In this document: in pieces, positions 42,339 to 59,011 of the stretch
Layout of the letters: each line of letters begins with the position of its first letter
How positions within the stretch are numbered: position 1 is the first letter of the stretch
From: Chromobacterium piscinae
GTDB taxonomy: Bacteria; Pseudomonadota; Gammaproteobacteria; Burkholderiales; Chromobacteriaceae
Assembly (NCBI RefSeq): GCF_021129175.1
Contig: NZ_JAJOHV010000006.1
Location: forward strand, 1-64,000
DNA length: 64,000 bases
Direction: 5' to 3'
Program-made: the position numbers and the translations under genes
The notes under the pieces: generated by a model
Seen by the model: the letters and a program-made list of their open reading frames with translations, nothing else
Database searches by the model: none
What the model was told of the DNA's origin: nothing

Positions 42339-42346
42339 GGGGATGT

Positions 42347-43945
42347 ATGAGGAATATGCTTGTTGTCGCGTGCTGCTCGGTCATGGCGGCCGGCTGCGGC
42401 ACGCCGGGCCTGTTGCAGAACACGGATGAGCGCATCGGCGACGTGCAGGACGCATCGCGCAAGGCCGGCGCGGAGTTGGCGTATCCGGCGGCGGAGCTGG
42501 TGGAGCGGAATGGCGGAGCCTGGCTTGCCCATCGTTCGGTCGTGATGGATGAGGCGGACGCGTTGCCGGCTCGCTTCGAGGAGCCGGCCAGCTTCGCATC
42601 CGGCAGGGCATTGCCGCTGTCGCTGCTGCTTGAACAGATCGCCAAGGAGCAGGGAGTCGTCATCCGTCTGGCGCGCGATATCTTCAGCGCCGGGGCGGCG
42701 AAGCAGACCGGCGCCGCGCCGCAGACGGCGGCGCTGCCGGCGCTGCAGCCGGGTTTGGGAGCATTGCCGCTGCCCGCAGCGACTGGAGGCGATGGAGAGC
42801 CCAGGGCGCAAGTGAATTACAGCGGCAGCCTGCGCGGCTTGCTGGATGCCGTGGCCAACCGTACCGGCACCTACTGGGTGTACCGCAGTGGGGCGGTCAA
42901 ATTCTCTCGCTTGCTTACCCGGACTTTTCAGATCAAGACCATGCCGGGCACCTCCAGCTATGTGGCCAAGGTGGGCAAGAGCTCGCAGAGCAGCACTGGC
43001 GGGGGCGGCACCGCTGGCGGTTCCAGCCTGAATTTCGGCTCGGACTCATCGGTCAGCATGAATTCGGAAATGAAATACTGGGACCGGCTCAGCGATACGG
43101 TCAACAGCATGCTGTCGCCGCTTGGGCGGGCGGTGTCGTCCGAGATGACCAGCTCCATCACGGTGACCGATTCGGCCGACGTCATTGAGCGCGTGAGCCG
43201 TTACGTCGATGGCGAAAACGCGGTACTGGGGCGGCAGGTCAGCTTGTCGGTGCAGGTGTTTTCGATCCGCCTGACCCGCGACTCTGCGGCCGGCATAGAT
43301 TGGGATCTGGTGTATCACGCAGCGCAAAGCGGCTGGGGCAGCTCGTTCCGGATGGCGGGCAATTCGGATACTAGCCAAGGCGTGTTCGGCATCACGATGG
43401 ATTCCGGGCAGTTCAAGGGATCGAAAATCCTGTTGCAGGCGCTGAGCCAACAAGGACGCGTGAGCACGGTGGTCAATACCAATGTCGTCACCCTCAATAA
43501 TCAGCCGGCGCCGGTGGCGGTCACCAGCAACCGCGGCTATCTGGCCCGGGTCACCAGCACGCCCGGCACCAACGGTTCCGGACCCAGCGTTGGGTTGGAG
43601 CCGGGCCTGATCTCGACCGGCTTCGTCATGAATTTGCTGCCGACCTTGCTGAACAACAGCAGCGTCATGTTGCAGGTTCAGATCGATCTGTCCGAGTTGA
43701 TGGGGATCGATGAGGTCAAGTCCGGAGACAACCTGATCCAGACGCCGAATACTTCGTCGGTGCAGACGATGCAGCGCGCGGCGCTGAAGTCCGGACAGAC
43801 GCTGATCCTGAGCGGGTTCCGCCAGGCCAGGAACAATACGCGGCGCAAGGGCGTGATTGCGTACGAGGGCGGCACGAAGACCGCCTCGCAGAGCGACGAG
43901 GAAGTCATCGTGGTCATCTCGCCGCAACTGACCGAGGGCGTGTGA
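42347..43945 (+). CDS. pilN: Type IVb pilus secretin (PilN/BfpB family)
   Basis: The 532-residue outer-membrane lipoprotein has a lipobox in VMAAGCGTPG and N-domains with LDAVANRTGTYWVYRSGAV. A Gly/Ser-rich loop lies near 220-235. The secretin core has VNTNVVTLNNQPAPVAVTSN, followed by LNLLP-type and PQLTEGV ends. It forms the outer-membrane gate for the pilus. The ATG at 42347 has GAGGGG just upstream; an in-frame ATG at 42335, overlapping the TcpQ stop, is the alternative start. It resembles R64 PilN. Confidence 0.9.
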   Translation: MRNMLVVACCSVMAAGCGTPGLLQNTDERIGDVQDASRKAGAELAYPAAELVERNGGAWLAHRSVVMDEADALPARFEEPASFASGRALPLSLLLEQIAKEQGVVIRLARDIFSAGAAKQTGAAPQTAALPALQPGLGALPLPAATGGDGEPRAQVNYSGSLRGLLDAVANRTGTYWVYRSGAVKFSRLLTRTFQIKTMPGTSSYVAKVGKSSQSSTGGGGTAGGSSLNFGSDSSVSMNSEMKYWDRLSDTVNSMLSPLGRAVSSEMTSSITVTDSADVIERVSRYVDGENAVLGRQVSLSVQVFSIRLTRDSAAGIDWDLVYHAAQSGWGSSFRMAGNSDTSQGVFGITMDSGQFKGSKILLQALSQQGRVSTVVNTNVVTLNNQPAPVAVTSNRGYLARVTSTPGTNGSGPSVGLEPGLISTGFVMNLLPTLLNNSSVMLQVQIDLSELMGIDEVKSGDNLIQTPNTSSVQTMQRAALKSGQTLILSGFRQARNNTRRKGVIAYEGGTKTASQSDEEVIVVISPQLTEGV

Positions 43946-43946
43946 G

Positions 43947-45227
43947 GTGTCCCGGCTGCTGTTCGGCAATCTGGTTGTCGAGGTCCAGTGGGAAGCGCTG
44001 CTTGGGCTGAGCAAGGAAGCGGACGAGATCCGCGAACTATCCTCACGTCGGGGAACCAAGCAGTTCCTGGTGTTGCGCAATCAGCTGGGTCCGCATGTGG
44101 TGGGCTTGGCCGACTTGCCCGGCAATGTGCGCAAAACGGCGTATTTCGCTCTGGCCGGCCTGCTCCGGGAAATGTCGGACGATGACAACATTCTCTTCCT
44201 GCATACCGATCCGGAGGATGCGGAAAGCCTGATTTTCATCGCCATACACGAGGGCAAGCCGACATATGACCGCGTGGTTTCCCGCGGCGAGGCCATCGCC
44301 GCGGCCAGGCAGTTCATCCAGGAGGTCGGGACCGGGGTCACCGTCTTGGGCGATGTGTCCGAAGGCCCGCTGGTTGCGACCAGGTTGCTCGATCTCGAGC
44401 ATATCGTCAGCGCGCTGGCCGATGAGGATAAGGCGGCGTCACGCTTCCAACCCTTGCCTGGCGGCGGCCGCTGGGCGGTCGCCTTGTTGATGCTGGTTCT
44501 GGCGGGCATGGGGTGCGGCGCCTGGTGGTGGACCCAGGAACAAGAGCGCGAACGGCTGGCGAGCCTGGCGACGCTGCAGGCGGCCAGCCCAGATCCGGCG
44601 GCGATCTATCGCGGCCAGATGGAAAAAGCCTGGCAGGGACTTCCGTTGCGGCATGGCGTGGGGTATGCCCGGGCGATGCAGGGCGTCGTCCAGCAATTGC
44701 CGTTGTCGGCGGGCGGATGGCGGATCAGCCGCATGTTTTGCCAAAACGGCGTTTGCGCGCTGACTTGGCTGCGCGGGGTCGGGGGCACGTTCGAAACCTT
44801 GCTTGCGCAGCGCCGTAATGTCCGTTTCCAGGACATGAATACTGCGGAGGAGAGCCTGGATTTCGCTCCGCCGGCCGGCGCTCCCGCGATTGAAGCGATG
44901 GATGCCTCGCAGTTCTACCTAAGGGCTGGTGTGCGGATGCAGATGCTGGATGACTACGGAAAATCCTTCTCTGGGGAAAGCCGGCTGCAGGTGGCCTTGA
45001 ACAAGATAGAGCCTCTGGTGCCGGTGCCGCCGGAGTTAAAGAGCCGGGCGGTCCAGCTTCGGCCGCTGGGCAAGGGGGACTGGATGCTGCAAGGCCATCT
45101 GGCGTTTCTGGATTCCTTGCCGGGCCTGATGGAGAAAGCCAACAACATGACGATAGATCAACTCGCAGTGACGGTAGATGACAAGAATCCCGCATTTTCG
45201 GCGAAGGGAGCGTTCTATGTCCGCTAA
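43947..45227 (+). CDS. pilO: Type IVb pilus protein PilO
   Basis: The 426-residue protein has a cytoplasmic N-terminal domain (RRGTKQFLVLRNQLGPHVVG). One membrane segment lies at about 177-193 (WAVALLMLVLAGMGCGAWWW). The periplasmic C-terminal domain follows. The layout matches PilO of R64, a bitopic inner-membrane platform protein. The start is GTG, one base after the pilN stop. Its end overlaps pilP by eleven bases. Confidence 0.85.
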   Translation: MSRLLFGNLVVEVQWEALLGLSKEADEIRELSSRRGTKQFLVLRNQLGPHVVGLADLPGNVRKTAYFALAGLLREMSDDDNILFLHTDPEDAESLIFIAIHEGKPTYDRVVSRGEAIAAARQFIQEVGTGVTVLGDVSEGPLVATRLLDLEHIVSALADEDKAASRFQPLPGGGRWAVALLMLVLAGMGCGAWWWTQEQERERLASLATLQAASPDPAAIYRGQMEKAWQGLPLRHGVGYARAMQGVVQQLPLSAGGWRISRMFCQNGVCALTWLRGVGGTFETLLAQRRNVRFQDMNTAEESLDFAPPAGAPAIEAMDASQFYLRAGVRMQMLDDYGKSFSGESRLQVALNKIEPLVPVPPELKSRAVQLRPLGKGDWMLQGHLAFLDSLPGLMEKANNMTIDQLAVTVDDKNPAFSAKGAFYVR

Positions 45228-45612
45228 TCCGCTGAAATGGCTGGCGCTCGCCGGGTTGGCGCTGGCTTTGCCCGCGGCGGCGGAAACCGTAGACAGTTTC
45301 GCAAGAGGGGCGTTGTCGTCGAGCGGCGGCATGCCGCCGCTGCCCGCCGCGGGAGCCGCGCCCGCACTGCCAGGGCCGGGGGGGGAGGCTGCGGCGCAGC
45401 CGTTCGACCTGATGTTTATCCAGAGCCGGGGCAAGGTTCGCAAGGCTTATATCGTGGTGGGCGGAAAATACGGCCGGGCAGTTCAGGCCGGCGACATGTT
45501 GCAGGAGTGGAAGATCGCGGCGGTGGGCGAAGACTATGTCGACATGGCGCGCCGCGGCAAGCGGACGCGTTTGCTGATGGATGCCGGCGCGGCGATCTCG
45601 GAGCCGCGCTGA
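45217..45612 (+). CDS. pilP: Type IVb pilus protein PilP
   Basis: The 131-residue protein has a signal peptide (LKWLALAGLALALPAAAE). A Gly/Pro-rich linker and a small C-terminal domain follow (AYIVVGGKYGRAVQAGDMLQ). This fold resembles GspC/PilP HR domains that dock on secretins. It overlaps pilO and lies 19 bp before pilQ. Confidence 0.85.
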   Translation: MSANPLKWLALAGLALALPAAAETVDSFARGALSSSGGMPPLPAAGAAPALPGPGGEAAAQPFDLMFIQSRGKVRKAYIVVGGKYGRAVQAGDMLQEWKIAAVGEDYVDMARRGKRTRLLMDAGAAISEPR

Positions 45613-45631
45613 ACGCGGGAAGGAGTGGATC

Positions 45632-47377
45632 GTGGAAGTGTGGAAATGGTTGACTGGCGCGTCGCGGCGGGATGAGGGCGCGGAGCGCAGGGCACATGCC
45701 CGGAATGCGACGAGAGGGGTGAGAGCCATGCCGGCGAGCCCGATCGCCCAGCTCAAGCTGGAGGCTATCCGGCATCAGGGATGGCGGCAGGAGAGCGAAC
45801 TGATATTGCCCGGCCATGAGAACGACGCGATGGTGCTGGTCGCGGCCAAGGCGAAGCAATACATCCTGCTTCTGGAAGATGCCGCTTATCGCCAGCTTCG
45901 GCACAGCGATCTGCTGCAGCGCTTCGACGCCGGGGTGCGCGGCCGGACCCGTTTCGCTTGTCTCGGCATCTTCGTGGGCAGCATGGAGGAGATCCTGCTG
46001 GTTCACTCCCAGCTGCAGCAGCATGGCATGGAGACCGGGCTGAGGGGAGGAGACGCCAAGACCGGCGGCTATCGAAATTTCGACATGGTGATCGAAAAGG
46101 CGATCGATCTGCGCGCCACCGATATCCATTTCGAGTTTCGCGACAGCGGCCTGGTCCAGGTTCGCTACCGCGTCCACGGCAAGCTGAGGGACAGCGACCC
46201 TAAGGATAAATTGCTGCGCGATTTCAACGCGATGATGGATGCGGTTTCCACTGCTTACAACTCCCGTGCTGACTCCAGCAGCCGCAGCCACAACCATTTC
46301 GATGAAAACAAGCATCAAAGCTGCTCCATCAGCCTGGCTATCCAGGGACGCAACTACCAGTTGCGTTTCCAGAGCATCCGGGAAAACCGCGGCGTCGACA
46401 TTGTCCTGCGGATACTGCTGAACGAGGCGGTGGAGAAGGACATCATGAGCCTGGCTGAGCTGGGCTACTCGGCCGATCAGGTGGAAGCATTGGAGGACGC
46501 GGTGTTCCGCTCGCCCGGGCTGACCATCATCGCCGGCGAGACCGGCTCGGGCAAAACCACCACTTTGCGCACGTTGATGACTTACGAGCGCCATTCCGGC
46601 AAGAAGTTTTTCTCCATCGAGGATCCGGTGGAGTATATCCAGCCGCATGTGACGCAAATTCCCATCCAGCGCAAGGCGGAGGACAGCCGCAAGGACGGCA
46701 GCGAGACCGCGTTCGGCGCGGCCTCCAAGGTCTTGCTGCGCGGCGATCCGGACAAGGTGATGGGCGGCGAGATCCGCGATGTGGAAACCGGTTCGTTCGC
46801 CAAGGCCATGACCCAGACCGGCCACCAGGTGTTGTCCACCGTCCACGCCGCCAGCGCTTTCGGCATCATCCCGCGGCTGAGCGACGACGAGGTCGGCATG
46901 CCGATCCACGCGCTGGCGGCGCCGGACTTCCTGACCGCGCTGGTTTATCAAAAGCTGGTGCCGGTGCTGTGCCCGGCATGCAGCCAGCCGGCGGCAGGCT
47001 GCCTGGATGAGTCGTATCTGCGCACCATCGCCGATCTGGGCATCGATATCGAGGCGGTGAGAGTGGAGGGGGCGGGGTGTCCCGAGTGCCGGCATCTGGG
47101 CAGCATGGGACAGACCGTGGTCGCCGAGGTGTGCGAAGTGACTGAGGAAATGTTGCCGCTGATCCGGGAGGGACGGTTCTGGGAGGCGGAGAAGCGCTGG
47201 CGCGCTCTGAGCAACGGCCGCCTGGACGATCCGACGATGCTGGGAAAGACCGCGATGGAGCATGCGCTCTACAAGATGTCGCTGGGCTTGCTGGACCCTC
47301 GCGATGTGGAGTCGGCGTTCCGCAAACTCAAGAAGTACCGCCCGCTGACGCCGGCGGAGAAAACGGAATGCGCATGA
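45632..47377 (+). CDS. pilQ: Type IVb pilus assembly ATPase PilQ
   Basis: The 581-residue GspE-family ATPase has Walker A GETGSGKTTT (about residues 302-311), the Asp box FFSIEDPVEYI and Walker B VMGGEIRDVETGS. STVHAASAF carries the His box. CPACSQ and CPECRH give a tetracysteine zinc motif near 440-485. It powers pilin polymerisation on the inner-membrane platform. The likely start is GTG at 45632 after GGAGTGGATC. Confidence 0.92.
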   Translation: MEVWKWLTGASRRDEGAERRAHARNATRGVRAMPASPIAQLKLEAIRHQGWRQESELILPGHENDAMVLVAAKAKQYILLLEDAAYRQLRHSDLLQRFDAGVRGRTRFACLGIFVGSMEEILLVHSQLQQHGMETGLRGGDAKTGGYRNFDMVIEKAIDLRATDIHFEFRDSGLVQVRYRVHGKLRDSDPKDKLLRDFNAMMDAVSTAYNSRADSSSRSHNHFDENKHQSCSISLAIQGRNYQLRFQSIRENRGVDIVLRILLNEAVEKDIMSLAELGYSADQVEALEDAVFRSPGLTIIAGETGSGKTTTLRTLMTYERHSGKKFFSIEDPVEYIQPHVTQIPIQRKAEDSRKDGSETAFGAASKVLLRGDPDKVMGGEIRDVETGSFAKAMTQTGHQVLSTVHAASAFGIIPRLSDDEVGMPIHALAAPDFLTALVYQKLVPVLCPACSQPAAGCLDESYLRTIADLGIDIEAVRVEGAGCPECRHLGSMGQTVVAEVCEVTEEMLPLIREGRFWEAEKRWRALSNGRLDDPTMLGKTAMEHALYKMSLGLLDPRDVESAFRKLKKYRPLTPAEKTECA

Positions 47378-47423
47378 GCCGGTTTCGCGGAGAAGGGCCG
47401 GGCGAGGCGAGGAGGAGCCAGTC

Positions 47424-48524
47424 ATGCTGGATTTGCTGAAGCGGTTTTTCGGCATCGCTCCCGCGGATGAGTCGAAATACGCAGGCCTGGCCAAGGCGCG
47501 GCGGAAGTTTCTGAAACTGCGCGCCAAATTCTACGGCGATCTGGCCGATTCGATCGAGGACGGCGCCAATCCCTATGAGTTGTTTTCCCACAAATACGCG
47601 TTGGCGCGCGAGCGCGGCAACCCGATGGCGCCCTTGTTCGCCTATTGGCGCCAGCGGGCGGCGTCGATGAATCTACGCGGCACCTGGGAGGGAACGGTTC
47701 CGGCGGACGATCTGATGGTGATCGGTTCCGGCGAGCGCGGCGATCTGCCGGAGGCGCTGCGCTTTTTGGCCAGGGTGGTGAAAATCAGGGAGGGCAACGC
47801 CAAGGCCATCAAGATGGCGGTGGCGTTGCCGATTTTTCTGCTGGTCCTGATGAGCGGGGTGCAGCTGGGGGTGGCCATCGGCATGATGCCCATCATGGAG
47901 CAGATCATGCCCGCCGAGCGCTTTCCATTCATTGGCAAGGTGCTGTACTACATGTCGGCGGCAATACGCGATTTCTGGTTTCTGATCTATGGGCTGCCGG
48001 TGTTGCTGGGCTTCGCCTATTTCTGGTCGCTGCCGCGCTGGACCGGCTCGCTGCGCAACCGGCTGGACCGCCATCTGCCGTACTCCGTGTATCGCGATTT
48101 GAAGGCCAGCGAATTTCTGGTGTCGCTTGCGGCGCTGTCGCAAGCGAATACCGCGGTGTTCGATGCGGTGATGCTGCTGGAGCGCGGCGCCACGCCATGG
48201 ATGCGCTGGCATTTGGCGCGGATCCGGATTTCGCTTACCGCCAACCGCAGCATCCTGAAAGCGATGGATACCGGTTTGTTTTCCGAGGAGATTTTCGACC
48301 GCTTGTCGGAATATTCCGAACGCAGCAATTTCGAAGACGGCATCCGCAAGATAGGGCTTGGCACGATCGAAGAGATCGCCGAGGCGATAGGCGAGCGCTC
48401 GGCCATCATGCGCAACGCGCTGGTGGTGATGGTGGGCGGATTCATCCTGCTGACCATCGCCGGCATGATGATGACGGCGCTGGAAGCGGGCAATCAGATT
48501 CAGCAAATGACCACCGGAGGGTAA
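47424..48524 (+). CDS. pilR: Type IVb pilus inner-membrane platform protein PilR (GspF family)
   Basis: The 366-residue protein has an N-terminal cytoplasmic domain and three membrane segments typical of GspF/PilC. The clearest are IKMAVALPIFLLVLMSGVQL and MVGGFILLTIAGMMMTALEA. It is the polytopic platform that connects PilQ to pilin. GAGGAGGAGCC precedes the ATG. It is separated from pilS by 76 bp with its own AT-rich promoter-like region. Confidence 0.9.
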   Translation: MLDLLKRFFGIAPADESKYAGLAKARRKFLKLRAKFYGDLADSIEDGANPYELFSHKYALARERGNPMAPLFAYWRQRAASMNLRGTWEGTVPADDLMVIGSGERGDLPEALRFLARVVKIREGNAKAIKMAVALPIFLLVLMSGVQLGVAIGMMPIMEQIMPAERFPFIGKVLYYMSAAIRDFWFLIYGLPVLLGFAYFWSLPRWTGSLRNRLDRHLPYSVYRDLKASEFLVSLAALSQANTAVFDAVMLLERGATPWMRWHLARIRISLTANRSILKAMDTGLFSEEIFDRLSEYSERSNFEDGIRKIGLGTIEEIAEAIGERSAIMRNALVVMVGGFILLTIAGMMMTALEAGNQIQQMTTGG

Positions 48525-48600: not shown

Positions 48601-49176
48601 ATGCATGCATTGCCAATACAAACTATGGCGACCCGTAACGGCTCGCTCAAACGCCAGGCCGGCATCGATCTGATCCAGCTTTCGGTCGCCGTCGGCATCA
48701 TCGCTTTCATTCTGGCGGTCGGCTTTTTGGTGGTGCCTACGGTAATGACCAATATCAAGGTCAACTCGGAAACCTCGGACATTCAGCAATCGGTTTCCAA
48801 TGCCCTGCGCGTGTTCGGCAGCGGCGCTGACAGCAGCGGCTTGACAACCGATGTGGCGGTCAGCCTCAAACTGTCGCCGCCGGATCGCATCAGCGGCAAA
48901 AACATTCTGAACCGCTTTGGCGGCACGGTGGACTGGAGCCATGGCAGCGTTTTCGGCAACGAAGACGGCTTGACGATTACGTCGAAGGGCTATTCGGCGG
49001 AAGCCTGCGCCAAGCTGGTGCCGAATGTGCAGGCATTGTTTGCCAGGATCAAGATCGGCGGCACTACGGTGAAGGACACCGCCAATGGCACGGCGCTGAG
49101 CGTGAGCTCTCTGGGCATCGCGTGCAATCCTGGCGGCGGCAAGACTGCTGATATCGAGTTCGCATTCACCAAATAA
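48601..49176 (+). CDS. pilS: Type IVb major prepilin PilS
   Basis: The 191-residue prepilin has a 21-residue leader ending KRQAG, cleaved before IDLIQLSVAVGIIAFILAVG. The mature N-terminal helix is followed by a pilin headgroup with Cys136 and Cys175 (SAEACAKL, LGIACNPGG), the expected C-terminal disulfide loop. Residue 5 of the mature protein is Gln instead of the usual Glu. It should be the polymer-forming subunit, processed by the dedicated peptidase at 54539-55471. Confidence 0.88.
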   Translation: MHALPIQTMATRNGSLKRQAGIDLIQLSVAVGIIAFILAVGFLVVPTVMTNIKVNSETSDIQQSVSNALRVFGSGADSSGLTTDVAVSLKLSPPDRISGKNILNRFGGTVDWSHGSVFGNEDGLTITSKGYSAEACAKLVPNVQALFARIKIGGTTVKDTANGTALSVSSLGIACNPGGGKTADIEFAFTK

Positions 49177-49224
49177 CAGCGGCGCCCCGCCGGAAGCGGG
49201 GTGGCGGCGAGAGTATCCGGATAC

Positions 49225-50172
49225 ATGATGCAAGAAATGATTACCGACGTTCAGTTGCACGTGCGCGACTGGCAGTCCTGCGTGCTGTTTCCCGGACAGA
49301 TCCGGCCGGCGGACGCGCACAGGGCTTTCCTGCAGGAAATGGCAGAAGCGGTTTTGGCCGAGCAAAAACAGATGGAGCAGCGCTCGGGTTTCACCGTGGC
49401 GGTTGGCGGGGCGCGCTGGCGCGTACAGCGCATGCAGCCATTCCGTTACGCCTGCCGCAAGGTGATGGGTCAGGCGCCCAAGCTGAATGAGCTGGGCTTG
49501 CTGGAATGCCACGTGCGGATGATGCAGTCGGACGAGTTGAAAAAGAGCGGCGGCTTGGTGCTGTTTTCCGGCCTGACCGGCTCCGGCAAGACCACCACCT
49601 TGAATGCGATGCTGGTGTCCCGGCTCGAGAAGTTCGGCGGCTTCGCCCAGACCGTGGAGGATCCGGTGGAGATCGTCATCGAGGGCTGGCATGGCGAGGG
49701 CTATTGCACCCAGATCGATGTGACGGATTGTCCCTCGGGGCAGGAAATCAGCTTTGATCACCGTTTCGCCGAGGCGATCACTACGTCCTTGCGCTCCTTC
49801 CCGGCGCGCGAGCGTTCGATACTGATGATAGGCGAGGTGCGCGATCCGCATAGCGCGGCAGAGTTGCTGCGGATCGCGGTGGACGGCCACCTGGTCTTGT
49901 CCACCATACACTCGCGCGATATTCCCACCGCGCTGAGCCGGCTGGCTTCGCTGGCGCGGGCCGGCGGCGAGATCCAGGCCGACAAATTCATCGCCGACGC
50001 CTTGCGCATGGTATTTCACCAGCGCCTGGACAACGGCATTCCGCAAGTAAGTTCGCTGGATGTGCGCGAGCGCAGGGATCTTTACCAGTTCCTGAGCAAG
50101 GGCGAGTACGCGCGCCTGGAAGGAGAGGTGGACATCCAGCGACGCATGAACGTTCAGAACAGGGGAAGCTGA
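49225..50172 (+). CDS. pilT: PilT/BfpF-like pilus retraction ATPase
   Basis: The 315-residue ATPase is much shorter than PilQ. It has Walker A GLTGSGKTTT (about residues 116-125), QTVEDPVEIV (Asp box), Walker B SILMIGEVRDPHSAAE and the His box STIHSRDIPTALSRL. The size and ILMIGEVRD pattern fit PilT-like retraction motors. The start is one of two adjacent ATGs (49225 or 49228); a GTG at 49201 is also in frame. It overlaps pilV by one base. Confidence 0.82.
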   Translation: MMQEMITDVQLHVRDWQSCVLFPGQIRPADAHRAFLQEMAEAVLAEQKQMEQRSGFTVAVGGARWRVQRMQPFRYACRKVMGQAPKLNELGLLECHVRMMQSDELKKSGGLVLFSGLTGSGKTTTLNAMLVSRLEKFGGFAQTVEDPVEIVIEGWHGEGYCTQIDVTDCPSGQEISFDHRFAEAITTSLRSFPARERSILMIGEVRDPHSAAELLRIAVDGHLVLSTIHSRDIPTALSRLASLARAGGEIQADKFIADALRMVFHQRLDNGIPQVSSLDVRERRDLYQFLSKGEYARLEGEVDIQRRMNVQNRGS

Positions 50173-51593
50173 TGCGCAGGAAGCAGGCAGGGGAGTTGCT
50201 GATCAGCCTGGCGATCGCCGTGACCTTGATAGGCATGTGCCTGGCTTATCTGGGGGTGCGCCAGGTGAACGATTGGCGGGAAAGCCGGGGCCGGCAACTG
50301 GGCGGCGCGCTGGCGGGGTTGGCCAGAGGCGTGAACAGTTATGTCGTCGAATATCACCCCAAGATCGTAGAGGCCCTGTTTGCTTCCGGACCGCCGATTC
50401 CCTTGGTGGACAAGGGCGTGTTGGTCGCCAAGGATGTGTTGCGCCCCACGGTCCAGGAAATTGTCAAGTACGCCGGCATGGGCGGCTTTGGCGACAAGCC
50501 GCCGGGCACGGATGGCAATTACCAGATCGTATTGAAGAGGGGCAGTCAATGCGCGGATGCGGCGACTTGCAATATCGACGCGCTGACCTATGTCGATAAA
50601 CCATTGATTTTGCCGTACCCCTCCGCCTCGGACAAAGTCGACTATGTGGCCGCCGCCGCCGCCGTGCAGACGATAGGAGTCAACGGCGGGATGTCGATGC
50701 TGCAGAGCAAGCAGTTTCTGACGTTTCCGGATAACCGCGGGCAGAAGGCGCTGCAGATGGAAAATCCAGCATCGGATCAGCAGGGCGGCATCGTCGCCGT
50801 GCGCGGCGGCTATCTGCGCTCGGATATGGACCAATTTCTGCGGCGCGACGGCAGCCGGCCGATGACGGGCAATCTGAACATGGGGGGCGGCAACATCGGC
50901 GCCGCCAAGGACATCGCGGGGACGGGCTCGCTGACGATGGATGGGAGTGCGATTGTTGCCGGCAGCATGGCGGCCTTTCAGAACATCACCGCAGGAGCGG
51001 ATTTGTCTGCCGGCGGCAACCTGACGGTGGAGAAGCTGGCGACGATGAAAGGCGAGCTCATCGCCAAGGAGCGGCTGACCGCCAATAAATACCTGCAATT
51101 GGGAGGAGACTCCAGAGCGGTGATTGGGGCGGATTGCTCGCCGAACGGCTTGGTGGGGCGCGATGAGGATGGCTTGATCCTGTCATGCCAGAGGCTGAAG
51201 TGGGCGCCGGGCGGTTTTTCGCAAACCAAGCCCGCGGTGGCGGAGGTTGAAACTTGCGGCAAGCAATCGATGCGTCCGCCCAAGGGGGACAGGGGCAATG
51301 CGTCGATCGCCTATTGCGAGGAAGGGGCTCGATTGGTGGCGGGGGGCTACTACCTGACTGGCTGGCCCAATCAGGCAGACGAACATCTATATGAGAAGTA
51401 CACCCTCGCGCCGGAGGAAAGCGCGCCGCTGGCCTTTTACACCATAGCGCGGGACGAATATCCGCAGGGCTTCAAGTCCCGCAACGACGAACGTCCGTTG
51501 CCGCGCGACAAGTTGAACCGCGAGGGCTGGTATGTCTGGACCGGGGGGGCGGAGTCGGGCTGCTGGAAGGCTGTAGCCATGTGCACCAAATAA
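50172..51593 (+). CDS. pilV: Type IVb minor pilin/tip adhesin PilV
   Basis: The 473-residue prepilin has a short leader MRRKQAG followed by ELLISLAIAVTLIGMCLAYL. The long body resembles PilV of R64 (shufflon N-terminal constant region), with GSRPMTGNLNMGGGNIGAAK. A distinct C-terminal receptor-type domain (from about residue 320) has six cysteines. In R64, PilV is the tip adhesin whose C-terminus is switched by the shufflon. Here no rci recombinase or inverted-repeat cassettes follow. Confidence 0.85.
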   Translation: MRRKQAGELLISLAIAVTLIGMCLAYLGVRQVNDWRESRGRQLGGALAGLARGVNSYVVEYHPKIVEALFASGPPIPLVDKGVLVAKDVLRPTVQEIVKYAGMGGFGDKPPGTDGNYQIVLKRGSQCADAATCNIDALTYVDKPLILPYPSASDKVDYVAAAAAVQTIGVNGGMSMLQSKQFLTFPDNRGQKALQMENPASDQQGGIVAVRGGYLRSDMDQFLRRDGSRPMTGNLNMGGGNIGAAKDIAGTGSLTMDGSAIVAGSMAAFQNITAGADLSAGGNLTVEKLATMKGELIAKERLTANKYLQLGGDSRAVIGADCSPNGLVGRDEDGLILSCQRLKWAPGGFSQTKPAVAEVETCGKQSMRPPKGDRGNASIAYCEEGARLVAGGYYLTGWPNQADEHLYEKYTLAPEESAPLAFYTIARDEYPQGFKSRNDERPLPRDKLNREGWYVWTGGAESGCWKAVAMCTK

Positions 51594-52708: not shown

Positions 52709-53248
52709 AAACACTCGGAACTCATGTATTTGGACCTGCGGCGGCAACGCCGGCGGATTCGACCGAAGGTGGTTGGCAGGCGGTTATTTCGCCTTGAGGG
52801 CGGACGGGCTGGAGGCGAGGCATTATTGAATGCTTCTTGAGTTGATAGTCGCGGTCATTCCTTACCTTTCCTGTAGACTTCGTTTTCCGATGATACTAAA
52901 TCAATATTTTTGTTTTTTTTATCTTGAATTTGGCATGTCAGGCTATTTGCCGTGGTGGTGGTCGCCCAGGGACGAGCTGGGTGTTTTTATGCCCGTTGAT
53001 TGTCTGACAATGGTGGTTTGTGTTTCTGGCAGCGCGGCGGAGTGGCTGGCAACGTACCGTTTTAAAATGCGGATAACCCGGACATGGAGGAGGCTCATGT
53101 ATGAGCGGCGTAGTCGTTGGCGTTCGTGGAAATGAATTTTTGTGACCTTGTGGTACACTCTAGTAGTAATGAAACTAAAAGAAACTGTAACCTCCGGGCT
53201 GCGCCAAGAGGCAGGGTCACTCATGGTAACTGAGTGAGGGGAAAAGAC
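52709..53248. other. Gene-poor gap upstream of the tandem-repeat gene
   Basis: About 540 bp without a confident gene. A short rightward frame ending at 53135 has a stretch near VVCVSGSAAEWLATYRF that weakly resembles the first part of the repeat unit in the next gene. That hints at a decayed copy. A hairpin at 53217-53237 ends the stretch. Confidence 0.5.
53217..53237 (+). promoter_or_regulatory. Hairpin overlapping the ribosome-binding site of the 53249 gene
   Basis: TCACTCA and TGAGTGA form a seven-base stem with loop TGGTAAC, ending where the GAGGGG Shine-Dalgarno begins. It could control translation of the downstream gene. Confidence 0.35.
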
Positions 53249-53761
53249 ATGTACGATGACGGACGCGTATTTTTGGTTGCGGGCTATTGGGCAAAACTTA
53301 AGAAAGCGTTCTCGGCGGCTTCTGTGTATGTCATTGCGGACACTGCGACCGTCGCATCCAGTTTGGCAAAGCGTTGCATGCCGCAGTTTCAGCCGGCGGG
53401 TGTGATGAGTCTGGCCGAAGTGCGTCGATATGTAAATTACATGAATCGGATCGCCGCCGGCGACGAGGCTTGCCTGATGCAAGAGGGGGTGGCTTTTGGC
53501 GATGACGGCCGCCTGCCCGCGGAGCGGGTTTTCGTTGTTGTCGGGTTTTCTAAGACTCATGCGCCGGACCGGAATCCCGTGGTCAATTTCGTGGCTGCGC
53601 GCAGTGAGGCTGAGGCGGCGGTTCTGCAGCAGGGCGCGATGCCTAGTCTTTCCGTTTCTGGCGTGGTGGATTTGGCCAGATTGACGGAGTTGTTGTACCG
53701 AATGGAAAGGGTGGCAACTGGAGAGGTGCCGGCGCTAAAAGAACATGGTGTCATTCGGTAA
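53249..53761 (+). CDS. Hypothetical protein with internal tandem duplication
   Basis: The 170-residue protein consists of two related units of about 77 residues (residues 6-82 and 93-169). Each opens with a beta-strand motif (RVFLVAGY and RVFVVVGF). Each closes with MP..., a helix (EVRRYVNYMNRIAAGDE and RLTELLYRMERVATGEV) and an acid/His-type end (MQEGV and KEHGV). No known family was recognised. GAGGGG precedes the ATG at 53249. It lies 31 bp before the next unknown gene, probably in one transcript. Confidence 0.7.
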   Translation: MYDDGRVFLVAGYWAKLKKAFSAASVYVIADTATVASSLAKRCMPQFQPAGVMSLAEVRRYVNYMNRIAAGDEACLMQEGVAFGDDGRLPAERVFVVVGFSKTHAPDRNPVVNFVAARSEAEAAVLQQGAMPSLSVSGVVDLARLTELLYRMERVATGEVPALKEHGVIR

Positions 53762-53792
53762 TGATCGGGTCTATCGCAAAAAGGTGTGACAG

Positions 53793-54473
53793 ATGTCTAC
53801 GGTGAACATCCCGGTGTATGAACGTCAACTTGCGGCGGTATTGCCGGAGGAGTTGCAGGCTTGCTACTTCAGGGGCGAGGTGCCTGAGTCGATGCGGCAA
53901 CGGTTTGACGAGTGGAAGGCCGGCGCTTTTCTGGATGGAGCGCCGCCGGCTTCCATGACGGAAAGCAATGTAGCGAAGTTTTTCCTGAGGGCGGAGGCGC
54001 TCGGGGCGCGGGATGCGTTGGGCGCCATGGCGTTGTCCGTGTTGTTCCCCATGAGCAACGCGCCCATCACCGCGCTGGATGCTGCTGCGGTGAGGCGCGC
54101 TGCGGTTGCCGGCCACGCTCAGCTGGCGCGAGAGCTGGTGGATATGGCCATCCATCCCGCCGATGTCGCACCGGCCAACCGCCAACCGCCGGCCGCGGAT
54201 CGGCGCCTGGCCGAATCGGCGCAGCCTGAAGGGGAAAGCATTGACCGCAATTTGCTGGATTTTTTTCAAATGCGAGGCAATGCCAAGTACCGCAAAGACT
54301 TGATGATTAATGTGGCGCTGGAGGAGGCTCACGGCGCCAAAGGGCTTGCCGAGCGGGTGGAGCGGCGCATGGGCGTCCTGGCCGAGCCGGAGCGGGGGTG
54401 GGTGAAGCGACTGCTGGATGGCGAGCCGCCCGCCGACGTCATGAAGGATGTGCGCCGCGCCAAGGCGCCTTAG
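53793..54473 (+). CDS. Hypothetical soluble protein
   Basis: The 226-residue protein has an N-terminal part with PEELQACYFRGEVPESMRQ and an Ala-rich middle. A Pro-rich linker lies near 125-145. A helical C-terminus has FFQMRGNAKYRKDLMINVAL and ends in DVMKDVRRAKAP. No signal peptide, membrane segment or family was recognised. It follows the tandem-repeat gene and converges with the prepilin peptidase gene. Confidence 0.65.
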   Translation: MSTVNIPVYERQLAAVLPEELQACYFRGEVPESMRQRFDEWKAGAFLDGAPPASMTESNVAKFFLRAEALGARDALGAMALSVLFPMSNAPITALDAAAVRRAAVAGHAQLARELVDMAIHPADVAPANRQPPAADRRLAESAQPEGESIDRNLLDFFQMRGNAKYRKDLMINVALEEAHGAKGLAERVERRMGVLAEPERGWVKRLLDGEPPADVMKDVRRAKAP

Positions 54474-54538: not shown

Positions 54539-55471
54539 CTAGCCCTGCCCCAGGGCTGTCTTCAGATACCAGGCGGCGATTTCATTTCCCCAGAGCAACG
54601 CTACCGCGGCTGCGCCGATGAGGTAGGGGCCGAATGGTTGTGGCGCATGGCCGTCAATCTTCCGCATCGCGATCAGCGCGCCGCCGGCCAGCGCGCTGCT
54701 TATGGCGCCGAGTCCGATAATCAGCGGCAGTTGCTGCCATCCTAGCCAGGCTCCCAAGCCTGCCATCAGTTTGACATCTCCGGCGCCGAGTCCATCCCGT
54801 CCTGTGCATAGGCGGAACGCGGCGGCGATCGCCCGCATCAGCAGATATCCGGCCATCGCGCCGATTACCCCGTCTTGTAGTGGAATGAATAGATGAAAGA
54901 GATTGGCGGCTAGACCCAGCCACAGCAATGGCTGGGTCAGCGTGTCTGGCAACAGTCTGACATCAAGATCAATCAGCGCCAGCGCGGACAGCAGGAACAG
55001 AAAAACCAGGCTGGCGATGGCGGTGGGATGGGGGCCTAGCCGCCAGCCTATTCCAAAGAAGGCTAGGCCGATGCCGAGCTCGACCAGGGGGTAGCGCAAG
55101 CTGATCTTGGCGGCGCAGCCGGCGCAACGTCCGCGAAGCAGCAAATAGCCAAGAAGCGGAATCAGCGTCCATCCGGCCAGCGGGGCATGGCAGGCGGGGC
55201 AATGCGAGCGCGGGTGGGATAGGGTCAGCGTTTCAAGCGGCGGCATCGGCTGGCCGGCGGCTTCGGCGCATTCGCGTCGCCAGGCGGATTCCATCATTTT
55301 TGGGAGCCTGTGAGCCAGCACATTCAAGAAGCTTCCAAGCAGCAAGCCCAAGACCAGCAGCGCGGTGGCGAATTGAGCGGTGAGTGCGGCGTTTAGGCTG
55401 AGCCAGGAAAATAGCCCTGTCAGCGCGATGCTCGCGCTTCCGATGAGAAGCGCGCTTTTCCGGTCGATCAT
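54539..55471 (-). CDS. Type IV prepilin peptidase/N-methyltransferase
   Basis: The 310-residue polytopic membrane protein has GSFLNVLAHRLPKMME and two zinc-binding Cys pairs (SHCPACHAPL, Cys91 and Cys94; RCAGCAAKI, Cys116 and Cys119). The catalytic Asp pair is in ALIDLDVRLLPD (Asp168/Asp170) and GLGAGDVKLMAG (Asp232). It cleaves and methylates prepilins. Standing at the end of the pilus locus, it probably processes PilS and PilV; a housekeeping PilD elsewhere is expected but not visible. It is divergent from the 55614 operon. Confidence 0.93.
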   Translation of the reverse strand: MIDRKSALLIGSASIALTGLFSWLSLNAALTAQFATALLVLGLLLGSFLNVLAHRLPKMMESAWRRECAEAAGQPMPPLETLTLSHPRSHCPACHAPLAGWTLIPLLGYLLLRGRCAGCAAKISLRYPLVELGIGLAFFGIGWRLGPHPTAIASLVFLFLLSALALIDLDVRLLPDTLTQPLLWLGLAANLFHLFIPLQDGVIGAMAGYLLMRAIAAAFRLCTGRDGLGAGDVKLMAGLGAWLGWQQLPLIIGLGAISSALAGGALIAMRKIDGHAPQPFGPYLIGAAAVALLWGNEIAAWYLKTALGQG

Positions 55472-55613: not shown

Positions 55614-56450
55614 ATGAGTGGAATGCATGATTTTGGCGATGCGGAAAGCCTGGCCTTGGATAGGGAGGAGCCTGGTTTTGCCGATGAGCGCTCAGCCGCG
55701 CGAGATGCATGGCGGCAATCTTTGCCGCACCAGGACTTCAAGATGGAGGAAAGGCCCGCGCACCCGCTGCAGGGGGGCAAGCCTAAGCGCGATATCCGGC
55801 GCGTGGCGGTGCTGGCGTTGATCGCATGGCTTGTTCTCACCCTGCTGGGGTTGCTGTTATGGCAGAAGTTTTTGAGTCCGCAGCCGATTGTCGAGCCGCT
55901 GGCGGCTGCTGCGGCGCCTGTCAGCCGGCCGGCGATGCCGGCGCCGCGTCAGAACGCTGCGAAAATTGGCGCGGCATCCGCGGCGGCCGGGCGTGCTGCG
56001 CCGCCAATGCTTGCCACGCGGACCAACGCTTCCGCCCCGTTTGCCGCTCAGCAGTCTGCAACGGCGCCGGATGCGCCGACATCCGCTCCATCCGGGCGAA
56101 AATCCGCGGCTCCGGCGCTTGACCCCAGGGCCATCAACCAGAAGTCCGCGCCCCCGGAGGAAACGCTGGCGGCCAAGGTCGCCAGGCTGGAGGCGGAGGT
56201 GAAAGCATTGACGGCTCGCAGCCGGCCGGAGAGCGCGCATAAGCCGGTTGCCGCCGGACATGGACGGAAGGCGCGGGATTTGAGCGTGCTGGGGATGTCC
56301 TCCACATCTGTGTGGGTGACGCAGCCGGATGGCCGCGCCACTGAATTACAGGTAGGCGATCGCTTCAGGAACGGCGAAGTGATTCAGCGCATAGACCAGC
56401 AAGCGCAGGTGATCGAAACGGATCATGGCCGCTACAAGGTCAACCTCTAG
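55614..56450 (+). CDS. Bitopic GspC/PilP- or TraP-like inner-membrane protein
   Basis: The 278-residue protein has a cytoplasmic N-terminus of about 65 residues. One membrane segment (RVAVLALIAWLVLTLLGLLL) and a Pro/Ala-rich periplasmic linker follow. A short coiled coil (ETLAAKVARLEAEVKALTAR) leads to a small C-terminal domain (ATELQVGDRFRNGEVIQRID) of GspC/PilP type. A similar layout occurs in TraP/IcmG proteins of conjugative and Dot/Icm systems. It leads a four-gene operon that ends at 59011 and is divergent from the prepilin peptidase. Confidence 0.65.
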   Translation: MSGMHDFGDAESLALDREEPGFADERSAARDAWRQSLPHQDFKMEERPAHPLQGGKPKRDIRRVAVLALIAWLVLTLLGLLLWQKFLSPQPIVEPLAAAAAPVSRPAMPAPRQNAAKIGAASAAAGRAAPPMLATRTNASAPFAAQQSATAPDAPTSAPSGRKSAAPALDPRAINQKSAPPEETLAAKVARLEAEVKALTARSRPESAHKPVAAGHGRKARDLSVLGMSSTSVWVTQPDGRATELQVGDRFRNGEVIQRIDQQAQVIETDHGRYKVNL

Positions 56451-56510
56451 CCAGCGGCGCAGGCTGGATGACGGCAGCGCCATCGGGCGCGGATATGAAA
56501 GGATGAAGTC

Positions 56511-57257
56511 ATGCGCAAGTTTTTCGCAAAAATGCTGCTGGGCAGCGACGCGCTCAGCAAACTCGACTCTATCGAACAGTCGGAAGCTCTGCAGGTGGTG
56601 GCGGGCAGCCAGCCTGAGGAGGCGATCAGCGACACGCTCAAGGGCAGCTCGCCCACCATCACGCGCGAGCAGATCCGCTCGCTGATCGAGATCGACATGG
56701 AGATTCATGGCGACATCTTCATCGGCCGCGGTGTCAAGGTGTCGGGGCGGATCATCGGCAGCTTGATCCCCAATGGGGCGGTCAAGGAGTGCGATCCTAT
56801 CGTCATCGTCAGCCAGGGAGGGGACATCAACGGCGATCTGCATGCCCGTGTCGTGGTCGTGGCCGGCAACCTGGATGGAGATATCTACGCCGACCACGTG
56901 TTGCTGATGCCGACTGCCCAAGTCTGCGGCACGGTCAACTATCGACATACCTTGCGCCAGGATATCGGGTCCGCCTTGTCTGGAATGGTAAGGCGGGTCG
57001 AGCATATCGCGATGCTGGACCATCCGCCGCATCCTTGCGATATGGGCCGGCGCGCATTGCCGGGCGACGGAGCGGCGCCGGGCGCGGACATCCCGGTTTT
57101 GACGATGGAGCGCGAACCGGCAGCCGCGCCGGTTTCGGCGGCGGTCTCGACATTGGCCGCGACGCAGAATACGGCGGAGATCGAAAGACTTTACCGCGGC
57201 CTGGATATCGAGCGTGACAACACGGCGGGCCTGCGTTCCTTGGCCGTCGGCGCCTGA
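56511..57257 (+). CDS. Bactofilin-family cytoskeletal protein
   Basis: The 248-residue protein has the bactofilin beta-helix pattern at about residues 60-150: EIDMEIHGDIFIGRGVKVSG, then GDINGDLHARVVVVAGNLDG, then YADHVLLMPTAQVCGTVNY. Bactofilins polymerise into filaments that position cell-wall enzymes or polar complexes. An N-terminal extension of about 55 residues and a disordered Pro/Ala-rich tail flank it. GAAAGGATGAAGTC precedes the ATG. It sits between the bitopic protein and two unknown genes, so a scaffold role for the local envelope system is plausible. Confidence 0.82.
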   Translation: MRKFFAKMLLGSDALSKLDSIEQSEALQVVAGSQPEEAISDTLKGSSPTITREQIRSLIEIDMEIHGDIFIGRGVKVSGRIIGSLIPNGAVKECDPIVIVSQGGDINGDLHARVVVVAGNLDGDIYADHVLLMPTAQVCGTVNYRHTLRQDIGSALSGMVRRVEHIAMLDHPPHPCDMGRRALPGDGAAPGADIPVLTMEREPAAAPVSAAVSTLAATQNTAEIERLYRGLDIERDNTAGLRSLAVGA

Positions 57258-57326
57258 TAGAGGCCGAATCGCATCGCTCGCGGGCGAGGCAGGCTTTTCA
57301 TTTGAATGGTGCGATCGGGAGTGGCG

Positions 57327-57707
57327 ATGGAAGCGCAAGGTTTTCCACGACGGATACCGGCGGATGCATTGTCGGCAGCGGAGGCTGGCAGGCTGGGCCT
57401 GGATGCGCCTTTGCCGCCGGAGGCGAGCGACGAGGAGGAAGATGCCCGGTGGGCCTGCCTGCCTTTTCTGAAGCTGGCGATCGAGCGCTTGTGCATCATG
57501 CAGTTGTTGGCCGAAGACCATGAGGTCGCATTTTCCCCCTTGGGCGGGGATGGCTTGGTGGCGATCCGCGCCATGGCAGCGTCGGCTGCGGATCCTGTGT
57601 TTGCCCAGGCCGCGGCGGCCTATCTGGGAAGCCTGGCCACGCTGGCTTCGATGATGGGGCGAGGGGAAACGGGCCTGCATCAGTCAATCAGCGGCTTGTA
57701 CCTGTAG
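57327..57707 (+). CDS. Small hypothetical protein of the 55.6-58.9 kb operon
   Basis: The 126-residue protein is acidic, with an EASDEEEDARWACL stretch and a helical C-terminal half (KLAIERLCIMQLLAEDHEVA). No family, signal or membrane segment was recognised. The ATG at 57327 has GGGAGTGGCG upstream. It lies 69 bp after the bactofilin gene and 15 bp before the ArdC-N gene, so it belongs to the operon. Confidence 0.65.
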   Translation: MEAQGFPRRIPADALSAAEAGRLGLDAPLPPEASDEEEDARWACLPFLKLAIERLCIMQLLAEDHEVAFSPLGGDGLVAIRAMAASAADPVFAQAAAAYLGSLATLASMMGRGETGLHQSISGLYL

Positions 57708-57722
57708 GGAAGAGGGGATTTC

Positions 57723-58919
57723 ATGAGTCTGCGGAGAAGCGGACGGCGCGATTATTTGAGCGAGGCCTCGGAAAGGGTTTCCCGGTATTCGGATGCGCTG
57801 CGGCCAGGCTGCGCGGCTGTGCCCGGGCGTCATTTCAATCCGCTGTCGGGAACGGTTTATCAAGGCATCAATCATTTGCTGTTGAGCGCCGCCTTGCCGG
57901 CGGAGAGCGCCGATCCCCGCTGGCTGACGTTGAAGCAGATAGACGACTTGCGGCAACGGTTTGGCGACATCAGGCTCGCCAACGGCGCGCAGGCCGCTTT
58001 GGCGGTGTTCGCGCTGCCTGTGACGCGCGGGGGGGCCATGCCTGGCGATGAAGCCGTATACGTGCTGAAAGGTTGTTCATTGTTTAATGGCGCGCAAATC
58101 ATGGGTTTGCCGCCGCTGGCGCCTCCCCCGGATTGCGATCGGGCGGCCGGAGGGGGCGGCGTTCGCTTGACGGAAGCTGTATTGAATGAGTTGGGATGGG
58201 CGGATGAGCTGAATGCCTTCCCGGCCCTGGCCCGTCATTGCCTGGAGGAGAAGGAGTTGGATGAGGGTGCCGAGTTGCTGCGGCGGATGGCCGCGGCCAT
58301 GTTGAGTTGGCTGCCTGGTTTTTTTGGAGAGATGCCGGATCGGCGCGTGCCTGGCTCGGAGCGGGCGGAGGGGCCATTGGCAGTCTTTCGCGCGGCGCAT
58401 GCGGTTGAGCGAATGTGGGCCTGGCTTGGCCAGCGCTCGCCGGCGGCAGCGGCATTCGAGCGAGCGGGCGACGAGTTTGTGAGGGCGAATCTGCTGGCCG
58501 ATCCGTCGGCGGCGGAGTGGAAGCCTGCGCCGGCTGCGGCCGCTGCCCAGTCCGCGGCGCGGCGGGGCGCGCTATGGATGGACGTGTCCCTGCTGACTGT
58601 CGCGGAGTCGACGCAGTTGACCGCTAGCCATTTCGGCAATCAGGAACTCTTGCCTGAAACCGAAGCCGAGTTGTATGGCCGCTTCCAGGCCTGGGCGCGG
58701 CAATCCATTCAGTCAGGCATTCATGATGACTTGCCTATTACCGCGCGCGAGCTATTCGGCTGGTTTCTTTCCGAAGAGGAGGGCATGGTTCGGGATCTGC
58801 TGCAGCTGGATGACGCGCGGCGGCGGCAGCGGCGCGCGGCTACGGCCATCGATATGGCTGTCCCCGGCCTCGCCGCCGCGGTTGCGGGGCGGTCGGCCGA
58901 GATTTCGATGCCGCGTTGA
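57723..58919 (+). CDS. ArdC N-terminal (DUF1738-like) domain protein lacking the peptidase half
   Basis: The 398-residue protein carries the ArdC-N pattern in order: NPLSG (39-43), YQGIN (46-50), PRWLTLKQ (65-72), GAQA (88-91) and LFNGAQIMGLPP (120-131). ArdC antirestriction proteins bind single-stranded DNA with this domain and normally have a zinc-peptidase domain with HExxH after it. That motif is absent here. Residues 150-398 are a helical, unrecognised region. It is the last gene of the operon, before a strong terminator. Confidence 0.75.
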   Translation: MSLRRSGRRDYLSEASERVSRYSDALRPGCAAVPGRHFNPLSGTVYQGINHLLLSAALPAESADPRWLTLKQIDDLRQRFGDIRLANGAQAALAVFALPVTRGGAMPGDEAVYVLKGCSLFNGAQIMGLPPLAPPPDCDRAAGGGGVRLTEAVLNELGWADELNAFPALARHCLEEKELDEGAELLRRMAAAMLSWLPGFFGEMPDRRVPGSERAEGPLAVFRAAHAVERMWAWLGQRSPAAAAFERAGDEFVRANLLADPSAAEWKPAPAAAAAQSAARRGALWMDVSLLTVAESTQLTASHFGNQELLPETEAELYGRFQAWARQSIQSGIHDDLPITARELFGWFLSEEEGMVRDLLQLDDARRRQRRAATAIDMAVPGLAAAVAGRSAEISMPR

Positions 58920-58983: not shown

Positions 58984-59011
58984 CAGCCGCCTGAAGGGCG
59001 GCTGTTTTTTT
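58984..59011 (+). terminator. Rho-independent terminator of the unknown operon
   Basis: CAGCCGCC and GGCGGCTG form an eight-base stem with loop TGAAG followed by seven T residues, 64 bp beyond the ArdC-N gene stop. Confidence 0.92.

Follow-up and report, generated by a model that had tools for sequence, protein, structure and literature searches.

Which machine is served by a small module that pairs a TraP-like membrane protein with a bactofilin? The question is raised by four genes, A-B-C-D, at 55614–58919 of a 64,000-nt stretch of Chromobacterium piscinae DNA (NZ_JAJOHV010000006.1; hereafter the window, to the whole of which all gene coordinates refer). Bactofilins are known mostly from cell-shape work; to our knowledge, there is little understanding of what sets the cellular site of conjugation and type IVb pilus machines. 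The four genes lie on one strand, with gaps of 60, 48 and 15 bases (A–B, B–C and C–D), and are followed by a terminator-like hairpin. The left flank is a type IVb pilus locus and the right flank an SPI-1-like type III secretion system (T3SS). This layout had been described in an earlier reading made from the sequence alone (the sequence-only reading), and the open reading frames (ORFs), the hairpin and the flanking protein families confirm it. That reading had taken the genes either as accessory to the pilus, in its positioning or regulation, or as a domesticated remnant of a conjugative system. The present analysis indicates that A–D are very likely a module from a Dot/Icm-type conjugative element of Chromobacteriaceae, from which the transfer channel has been stripped in the window lineage. 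The explanation favoured as a whole is that of an exapted conjugation module, likely serving the type IVb pilus, and not a T3SS accessory.

The comparison set comprised 101 related genomes, including the window's own. Gene D was found in seven of them, and since the same four genes stand in the order A-B-C-D on one strand in all seven, their grouping is more than chance. Three of these genomes, the window's own (G000), C. vaccinii MWU205 (G012) and G014, will be called the pilus-only three, and the others, G006, C. subtsugae PRAA4-1 (G007), G009 and Vogesella sp. XCS3 (G056), the channel-bearing four. Gene B has matches of at least 429 bits in the same seven, and 15 further genomes have a bactofilin match, the best at 55 bits. 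The window secretin PilN matches 40 of the 101 genomes, mostly as distant secretins, with 69–76% identity in exactly the six other A–D genomes, 61% for a fragment in G016, and 33% for the next best. A check for co-occurrence with type IVb pil clusters, which had been suggested with the sequence-only reading, was therefore positive, seven of the eight genomes with PilN at 61% or above carrying B and D. The single exception, G016, is a draft with pilus and Dot gene fragments on five contigs, in which no B or D match was obtained; this is either a real absence or a draft gap. C. vaccinii and C. subtsugae were the only species recovered with B in a contig search (one that may omit records near the window), viral contigs searched with B and C gave no relative, and a plasmid search with A at an E limit of 1 returned Vogesella only. 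Run against 300 genomes of the order, the A profile matched the window's own genome and gave three weak matches, confined to the helix and linker.

In the channel-bearing four, the module lies inside a conjugation region of Dot/Icm type (mating-pair formation class MPF_I), between DotA and the coupling protein. In Vogesella sp. XCS3 it is carried by a 164.5-kb plasmid (NZ_CP085531.1), on which the order is DotI, DotH, DotG, DotO-like, DotD, DotB-like ATPase, pil genes, DotA/TraY, A-B-C-D and coupling protein. The placement between DotA and coupling protein recurs in C. subtsugae (L015), G006 (L017) and G009 (L018), in G006 on the strand opposite both. PLSDB classes NZ_CP085531.1 as non-mobilizable, a typing that may reflect divergence, as its DotA is only about 22% identical to the DotA of other plasmids among the matches listed. 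Two nearly identical (96.5%) genes for 86-aa membrane proteins also lie between DotA and the module on this plasmid (L019 4423–5668).

The pilus-only three present a second context. Genome-wide searches for DotA, DotO, DotH and the coupling protein gave no match in G000 (E 0.001), G012 or G014; all four were found in G006, G007, G009, G056 and G016. By these markers the window's genome does not carry an MPF_I system, although DotD is present. The DotA search also matched G002, a genome without A–D, at 26% identity. DotD was found in eight of eight genomes (the seven plus G016), and in the pilus-only three it is reversed and placed before TcpQ. For DotG, DotI, DotC and DotB, no genome-wide search having been made, the window itself showed nothing beyond cross-matches between ATPases. 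Both DotD and the TraP-like A are components of the channel type, so that loss of the channel in one lineage, and not its gain, is the simplest reading. In unrooted trees the pilus-only three and the channel-bearing four fall on opposite sides of a split, with 100% support for PilN plus PilT, 99% for B, 75% for A plus C and 100% for all five together. With four modules in Dot/Icm-type regions and three in genomes without the searched channel genes, the suggestion of a domesticated conjugative remnant is strongly supported.

Gene A is very probably a distant relative of TraP and DotF. The predicted protein consists of a cytosolic tail, one membrane helix (residues 61–87), a Pro/Ala-rich linker, a coil (185–203) and a periplasmic beta domain (222–278). 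No Pfam or NCBIfam family exceeded its cut-off, and the NCBIfam equivalog IcmG_DotF_IVB gave 17.2 bits against a cut-off of 200, so that A is only a distant relative and no IcmG/DotF equivalog. Compared with a TraP profile, A reached a probability score of 91.6 (E 8.2e-7), and when the tails alone of A and TraP were compared, none of 200 column shuffles attained the score. The TraP profile in turn retrieves DotF at 8.5e-12, and the best structural match of the predicted A model is DotF, with a fold that is common to PilP and GspC too. The earlier guess that A is TraP-like was thus a good one. A carries the C-terminal HR-like domain and the profile-level similarity expected of a TraP/DotF protein; its gene does not directly follow traO/DotG, the Vogesella A lying about 42 kb from DotG, after DotA, and DotG there being followed by an ORF for an 86-aa membrane protein. 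PilP or GspC was rejected as the principal identity of A: the pilus locus has its own ORF at the PilP place (45178–45612), and it is TraP and DotF that A resembles most. Its NCBIfam matches far under cut-off (GltJ at 2.9e-5, IcmG/DotF, GspB, LapA, YqhH, GltG and TrbL) were likewise set aside, those to GltJ and TrbL being taken as low-complexity noise. Residues 6–17 in the cytosolic tail form a conserved motif, with 75–92% identity in within-group pairs and a mean of 87% between groups, against 29–51% within groups for the 43 residues that follow it (18–60). The motif is equally conserved with and without the channel; the beta domain has 67–72% identity without it and 67–87% with it.

Gene B has a bactofilin domain (PF04519, 52.8 bits, cut-off 27.9). 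Its N-terminus, MR[KN]FFAKMLLG, is basic, hydrophobic and almost invariant, and departs from the published MFSKKKK-like membrane-targeting consensus. NCBIfam matches of B to macrolide phosphotransferases were far under the cut-offs and were discarded. Gene C matched no Pfam or NCBIfam family over cut-off; its model is all-helical (mean pLDDT 77, pTM 0.60), and the best fold-search match, at E 3.5, does not demonstrate a new fold. Judging from the alignment, C may start at 57327 instead of 57306. PHROGs gave nothing for A or C and a weak match to an unknown family for B. When 30 chromosomal bactofilins (L076–L105) were viewed by eye, many were preceded by a different protein, mostly of 240–325 aa, with a common C-terminus (...FQRVEGTFRV...VQVRVYE...), which is perhaps the usual partner of chromosomal bactofilins.

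The ratio of nonsynonymous to synonymous differences (pN/pS) was compared between the two groups, the split D of G012 (pilus-only set) and of G006 (channel-bearing set) being left out; with several dS values infinite and synonymous sites close to saturation, the comparison is one of rough ratios. B gave 0.27–0.33 in the pilus-only three and 0.29–0.41 in the channel-bearing four; in the former, the pilus genes gave 0.26–0.31 (PilN) and 0.19–0.21 (PilT), and on these ratios the constraint on B since the loss of the channel matches that on the pilus secretin. The corresponding values were 0.31–0.46 and 0.38–0.77 for C, and 0.52–0.60 (much of it linker) and 0.45–0.70 for A. DotD stood at 0.52–0.57 in the pilus-only genomes and 0.20–0.27 in the channel-bearing ones, and D at 0.74 (one pair) and 0.46–0.57. 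These shifts suggest relaxed selection on DotD and D in the pilus-only lineage, with no such sign for A, B or C.

Such ratios bear on the alternative that survives best, namely that A–D are a passive relic, left over from the lost transfer region, undeleted and without present function. The window D has indeed decayed, the D of G012 and of G006 is split across two frames, selection looks relaxed on both DotD and D, and the searched channel genes are gone. However, B and C retain pN/pS values like those of working genes, the motif of A is as well conserved without the channel and its beta domain nearly so, and the pilus-only three are far apart (B 70–76% identical), yet A, B and C are open frames in all of them. 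A relic is thought unlikely.

That the module serves the pilus is probable, given that it has stayed with the pilus even without the channel and that the constraint on B resembles that on pilus genes. The proposal in the sequence-only reading of an accessory module positioning or regulating the pilus is accordingly the best-supported candidate function, the pilus being present in all seven genomes, with or without a channel; of the two interpretations first offered, it is the conjugative remnant that stands more firmly. The steps could be as follows. In the window lineage the channel (DotA, DotO, DotH and the coupling protein) would have been lost, and the type IVb pilus, DotD and A–D would have stayed, to end beside the T3SS. 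B would form membrane-bound bactofilin polymers, which would attach to A at its conserved N-terminal motif in the cytosol. Spanning the inner membrane, A would set its periplasmic TraP/DotF-like domain on the pilus machine, at the secretin side, and the scaffold would thereby fix the site of pilus assembly. C would be an adaptor in the same complex, and D a fading passenger derived from the anti-restriction protein ArdC. For docking of B on A by way of this motif there is good precedent: in the available parts of two reports on BacA (PMC10945521, PMC12448750), a membrane-associated polymer has a bitopic partner, LmdC or PbpC, bound via its cytosolic N-terminus. We would give the docking hypothesis slightly less than an even chance. 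The putative partner here differs from LmdC and PbpC in being a secretion- or pilus-type envelope protein, not a cell-wall enzyme.

Gene D has a partial ArdC-N match (profile 34–76 of 123; 26.0 bits, cut-off 22.6) and lacks a C-terminal domain present in four aligned relatives. The full-length D of Vogesella has both ArdC-N (1.3e-12) and a zincin domain (2.9e-36). The zincin match in the C. subtsugae D is weak (3.3e-7), no zincin was found in the D of G009 or G014 at 0.01 (a scan that left out the split D of G012 and G006), and MPTase-PolyVal gave no match in the window D at E 1. HExxH occurs in only one of the seven D proteins, that of Vogesella, and is absent from the window D. PHROGs placed D in an anti-restriction family (5.6e-6). 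Plasmids often carry D-like proteins (matches in 3080 records), and in a search of 274 genomes of the class the D profile had a match in 18, for the most part in its ArdC portion. The window's own genome has a second ArdC-like frame (G000:C25:80898–81767, L046; open frame 1030 aa), which fits the D profile at 6–294 (ArdC-N and zincin). ArdC of R388 has the ArdC-N domain in common with D and the zincin with the full-length Vogesella D; the window D differs in lacking HExxH and in its length, 398 aa against the 771 aa in Vogesella. According to the available part of one report, the plasmid is protected in recipients by R388 ArdC, whose effect on conjugation does not depend on protease activity (PMC7213743), so loss of HExxH alone is not loss of function. 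It could be argued from this, from the two-domain Vogesella D and from the many plasmid matches that A–D are an anti-restriction or establishment operon, in which ArdC is the working part and A–C assist in protecting incoming DNA. But A belongs to the envelope and is of TraP/DotF kind, constraint in the pilus-only lineage is weakest on D and strongest on B, and PADLOC gave no match at E 0.1 for A, B, C or D; we find such an operon very improbable.

A further alternative is that A and DotD form a reduced envelope conduit, derived from a type IV secretion system (T4SS) and working with the PilN secretin, with B merely aiding cell shape. Besides ATPase cross-matches, the window's relatives of transfer-core proteins are DotD and the DotF-like A, and proteins of both kinds belong to the Dot/Icm core complex, as the available part of PMC6112013 describes it. 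However, DotD is relaxed in the pilus-only genomes and its core partner DotH was not found, making a conduit very improbable. The window DotD-like protein scored 24.6 bits for PF16816, just under the cut-off of 27, and 22.5 bits for the SPOR family PF05036 (cut-off 21); a phmmer search of the Protein Data Bank with it gave nothing at E 1. In the DotD of relatives, SPOR exceeds the cut-off in G014 (23.8), falls short of it in G006 (20.1) and G012 (15.3), and is not seen at E 0.05 in Vogesella, G007 or G009. Lastly, a T3SS accessory that positions or regulates the neighbouring SPI-1-like system is hardly credible and was rejected, for the two are linked by nothing beyond adjacency in three of the seven genomes (window, G012 and G014), and in the other four, where the module sits in a conjugation region, five window T3SS proteins match nothing in the 20 kb around it.

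The proposed pilus module has likenesses to several described systems, and every part of it except C belongs or relates to a known kind. TraP of IncI/IncM-type MPF_I plasmids and DotF/IcmG of Dot/Icm resemble A in their bitopic build, coil and small C-terminal HR-like beta domain, but A sits between DotA and the coupling protein and not after traO, has a conserved cytosolic motif and a bactofilin downstream, and survives without the channel in three genomes. In Myxococcus, the bactofilin BacP is implicated in placing the type IV pilus machinery and acts through the GTPase SofG; no TraP-like partner is named in the available part of that report (PMC5703909). Compared with the R64/IncI1-type type IVb (thin) pilus, the window has the same TcpQ/PilN/PilO/PilQ/PilR/PilS/PilT/PilV order and the shufflon domain, with the PilN secretin, two T2SSE ATPases, platform protein, PilS and PilV that mark an R64-type pilus; it differs in adjoining a T3SS and in the absence of the transfer channel genes searched for in the genome. 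The titles and abstract openings returned by literature searches gave no bactofilin serving a T4SS or conjugative system, no TraP–bactofilin pairing and no account of this Chromobacterium locus.

A similar pairing was sought on plasmids, Methylovorus pMsip01 and seven more being examined out of 46 plasmid records with a bactofilin match. On pMsip01 (MPF_T; L048 14279–15378), the bactofilin overlaps the stop codon of an upstream gene whose product has a coil and an A-like tail, and on an Aromatoleum and a Cupriavidus plasmid the gene upstream of the bactofilin also ends in such a tail (three of eight plasmids in total). A membrane helix is likely in the Aromatoleum protein, lies upstream of the annotated start but in the same open frame in Methylovorus, and is not present in Cupriavidus as annotated. 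Jointly, the three tails gave probability scores of 66.5 with the TraP profile and 26 with the A profile, with none of 200 shuffles as high in each; full-length single proteins of these plasmids gave about 17 or less. A regular-expression tail signature missed A itself and was dropped in favour of hhalign ranks over 39 tails, with the proteins upstream of the 30 best-scoring chromosomal bactofilins as controls (the scored tails exclude the eighth plasmid, E. coli C311). The TraP profile ranked two Chromobacteriaceae A proteins first and second, followed by Aromatoleum, Cupriavidus and Methylovorus as third, fourth and fifth, all above the 30 controls; the A profile placed Cupriavidus third, Methylovorus fourth and Aromatoleum 16th. 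The four other plasmid neighbours fell among the controls on both profiles. Since the three tails were picked after the likeness had been seen, the wider pairing is a lead and not a result, and weak evidence of this kind suggests that the pair may also occur on Aromatoleum, Methylovorus and Cupriavidus plasmids. It is possible, if doubtful, that a TraP/DotF-type protein and a bactofilin make up a recurring, undescribed anchor module, which would fix the pilus or secretion machine of conjugative elements to a cytoskeletal scaffold, and which outlived its T4SS in Chromobacterium and would now serve the type IVb pilus.

The features of the window locus are collected in Table 1. A terminator scan gave nine sites of this type in 5.9 kb, against 4.9 expected, the hairpin after D having the most pairs. 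No sigma-70-like promoter was found before A (the scan gave one site in total, on the opposite strand, with 1.3 expected). The right flank, on the minus strand, encodes OrgA, SctJ/PrgK and PrgH, all above their NCBIfam cut-offs, and OrgB- and OrgC-like proteins below theirs. The two small genes within 53234–54473 have relatives of 64–79% identity near the same element in G012, G006, G009 and G014, and were not among the window matches of the Vogesella transfer region. Between pilQ and pilR the Vogesella plasmid has an unknown gene for 624 aa, with relatives 41–51% identical in G012, G014, G006, G007 and G009; no match to it was found in the window (expected place 47377–47424).

Table 1. Genes and signals of the module and its pilus-side flank, in window coordinates
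Feature	Coordinates	Strand	Remarks
DotD-like protein with SPOR domain, retained T4SS core gene, now inverted	40938..41603	-	49% identity, E 3.5e-59
TcpQ-like protein	41790..42338	+	PF10671
PilN secretin	42335..43945	+	TIGR02520 319.5 bits, cut-off 287.65
PilO-like	43947..45227	+	PF06864 below cut-off
Probable PilP	45178..45612	+	position only, plus 42.5% identity to plasmid gene at same place; no NCBIfam match
PilQ-like ATPase	45581..47377	+	PF00437
PilR platform protein	47424..48524	+	PF00482
PilS major pilin	48601..49176	+	PF08805
PilT-like ATPase	49201..50172	+	PF00437
PilV-like pilus tip protein, shufflon N domain	50172..51593	+	PF04917
Unknown gene	53234..53761	+	conserved with element in four other Chromobacterium genomes
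Unknown gene	53793..54473	+	conserved with element in four other Chromobacterium genomes
Prepilin peptidase (A24), divergent from A	54539..55471	-	PF01478, PF06750
Gene A, TraP/DotF-like bitopic inner-membrane protein, 278 aa	55614..56450	+	
Conserved cytosolic motif of A, residues 6-17, putative bactofilin-docking peptide	55629..55664	+	[DN]FG[DE]AESLALDx
C-terminal HR-like beta domain of A	56277..56447	+	
Gene B, bactofilin, 248 aa	56511..57257	+	PF04519 E 4.9e-14
Gene C, small acidic helical protein, no known family	57306..57707	+	start may be 57327
Gene D, ArdC-N remnant, 398 aa	57723..58919	+	
Terminator-like hairpin 3' of D	58984..59004	+	9 pairs, 7 G-C, then TTTTTTT

The locus shows how a conjugative element can be reduced to pilus genes that adjoin a T3SS. 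Together, these genomes provide a natural subtraction, one set having the pilus, the DNA channel and the module, and a related set the pilus and the module only, and the question of which machine a TraP–bactofilin module serves thereby becomes directly testable by gene removal.

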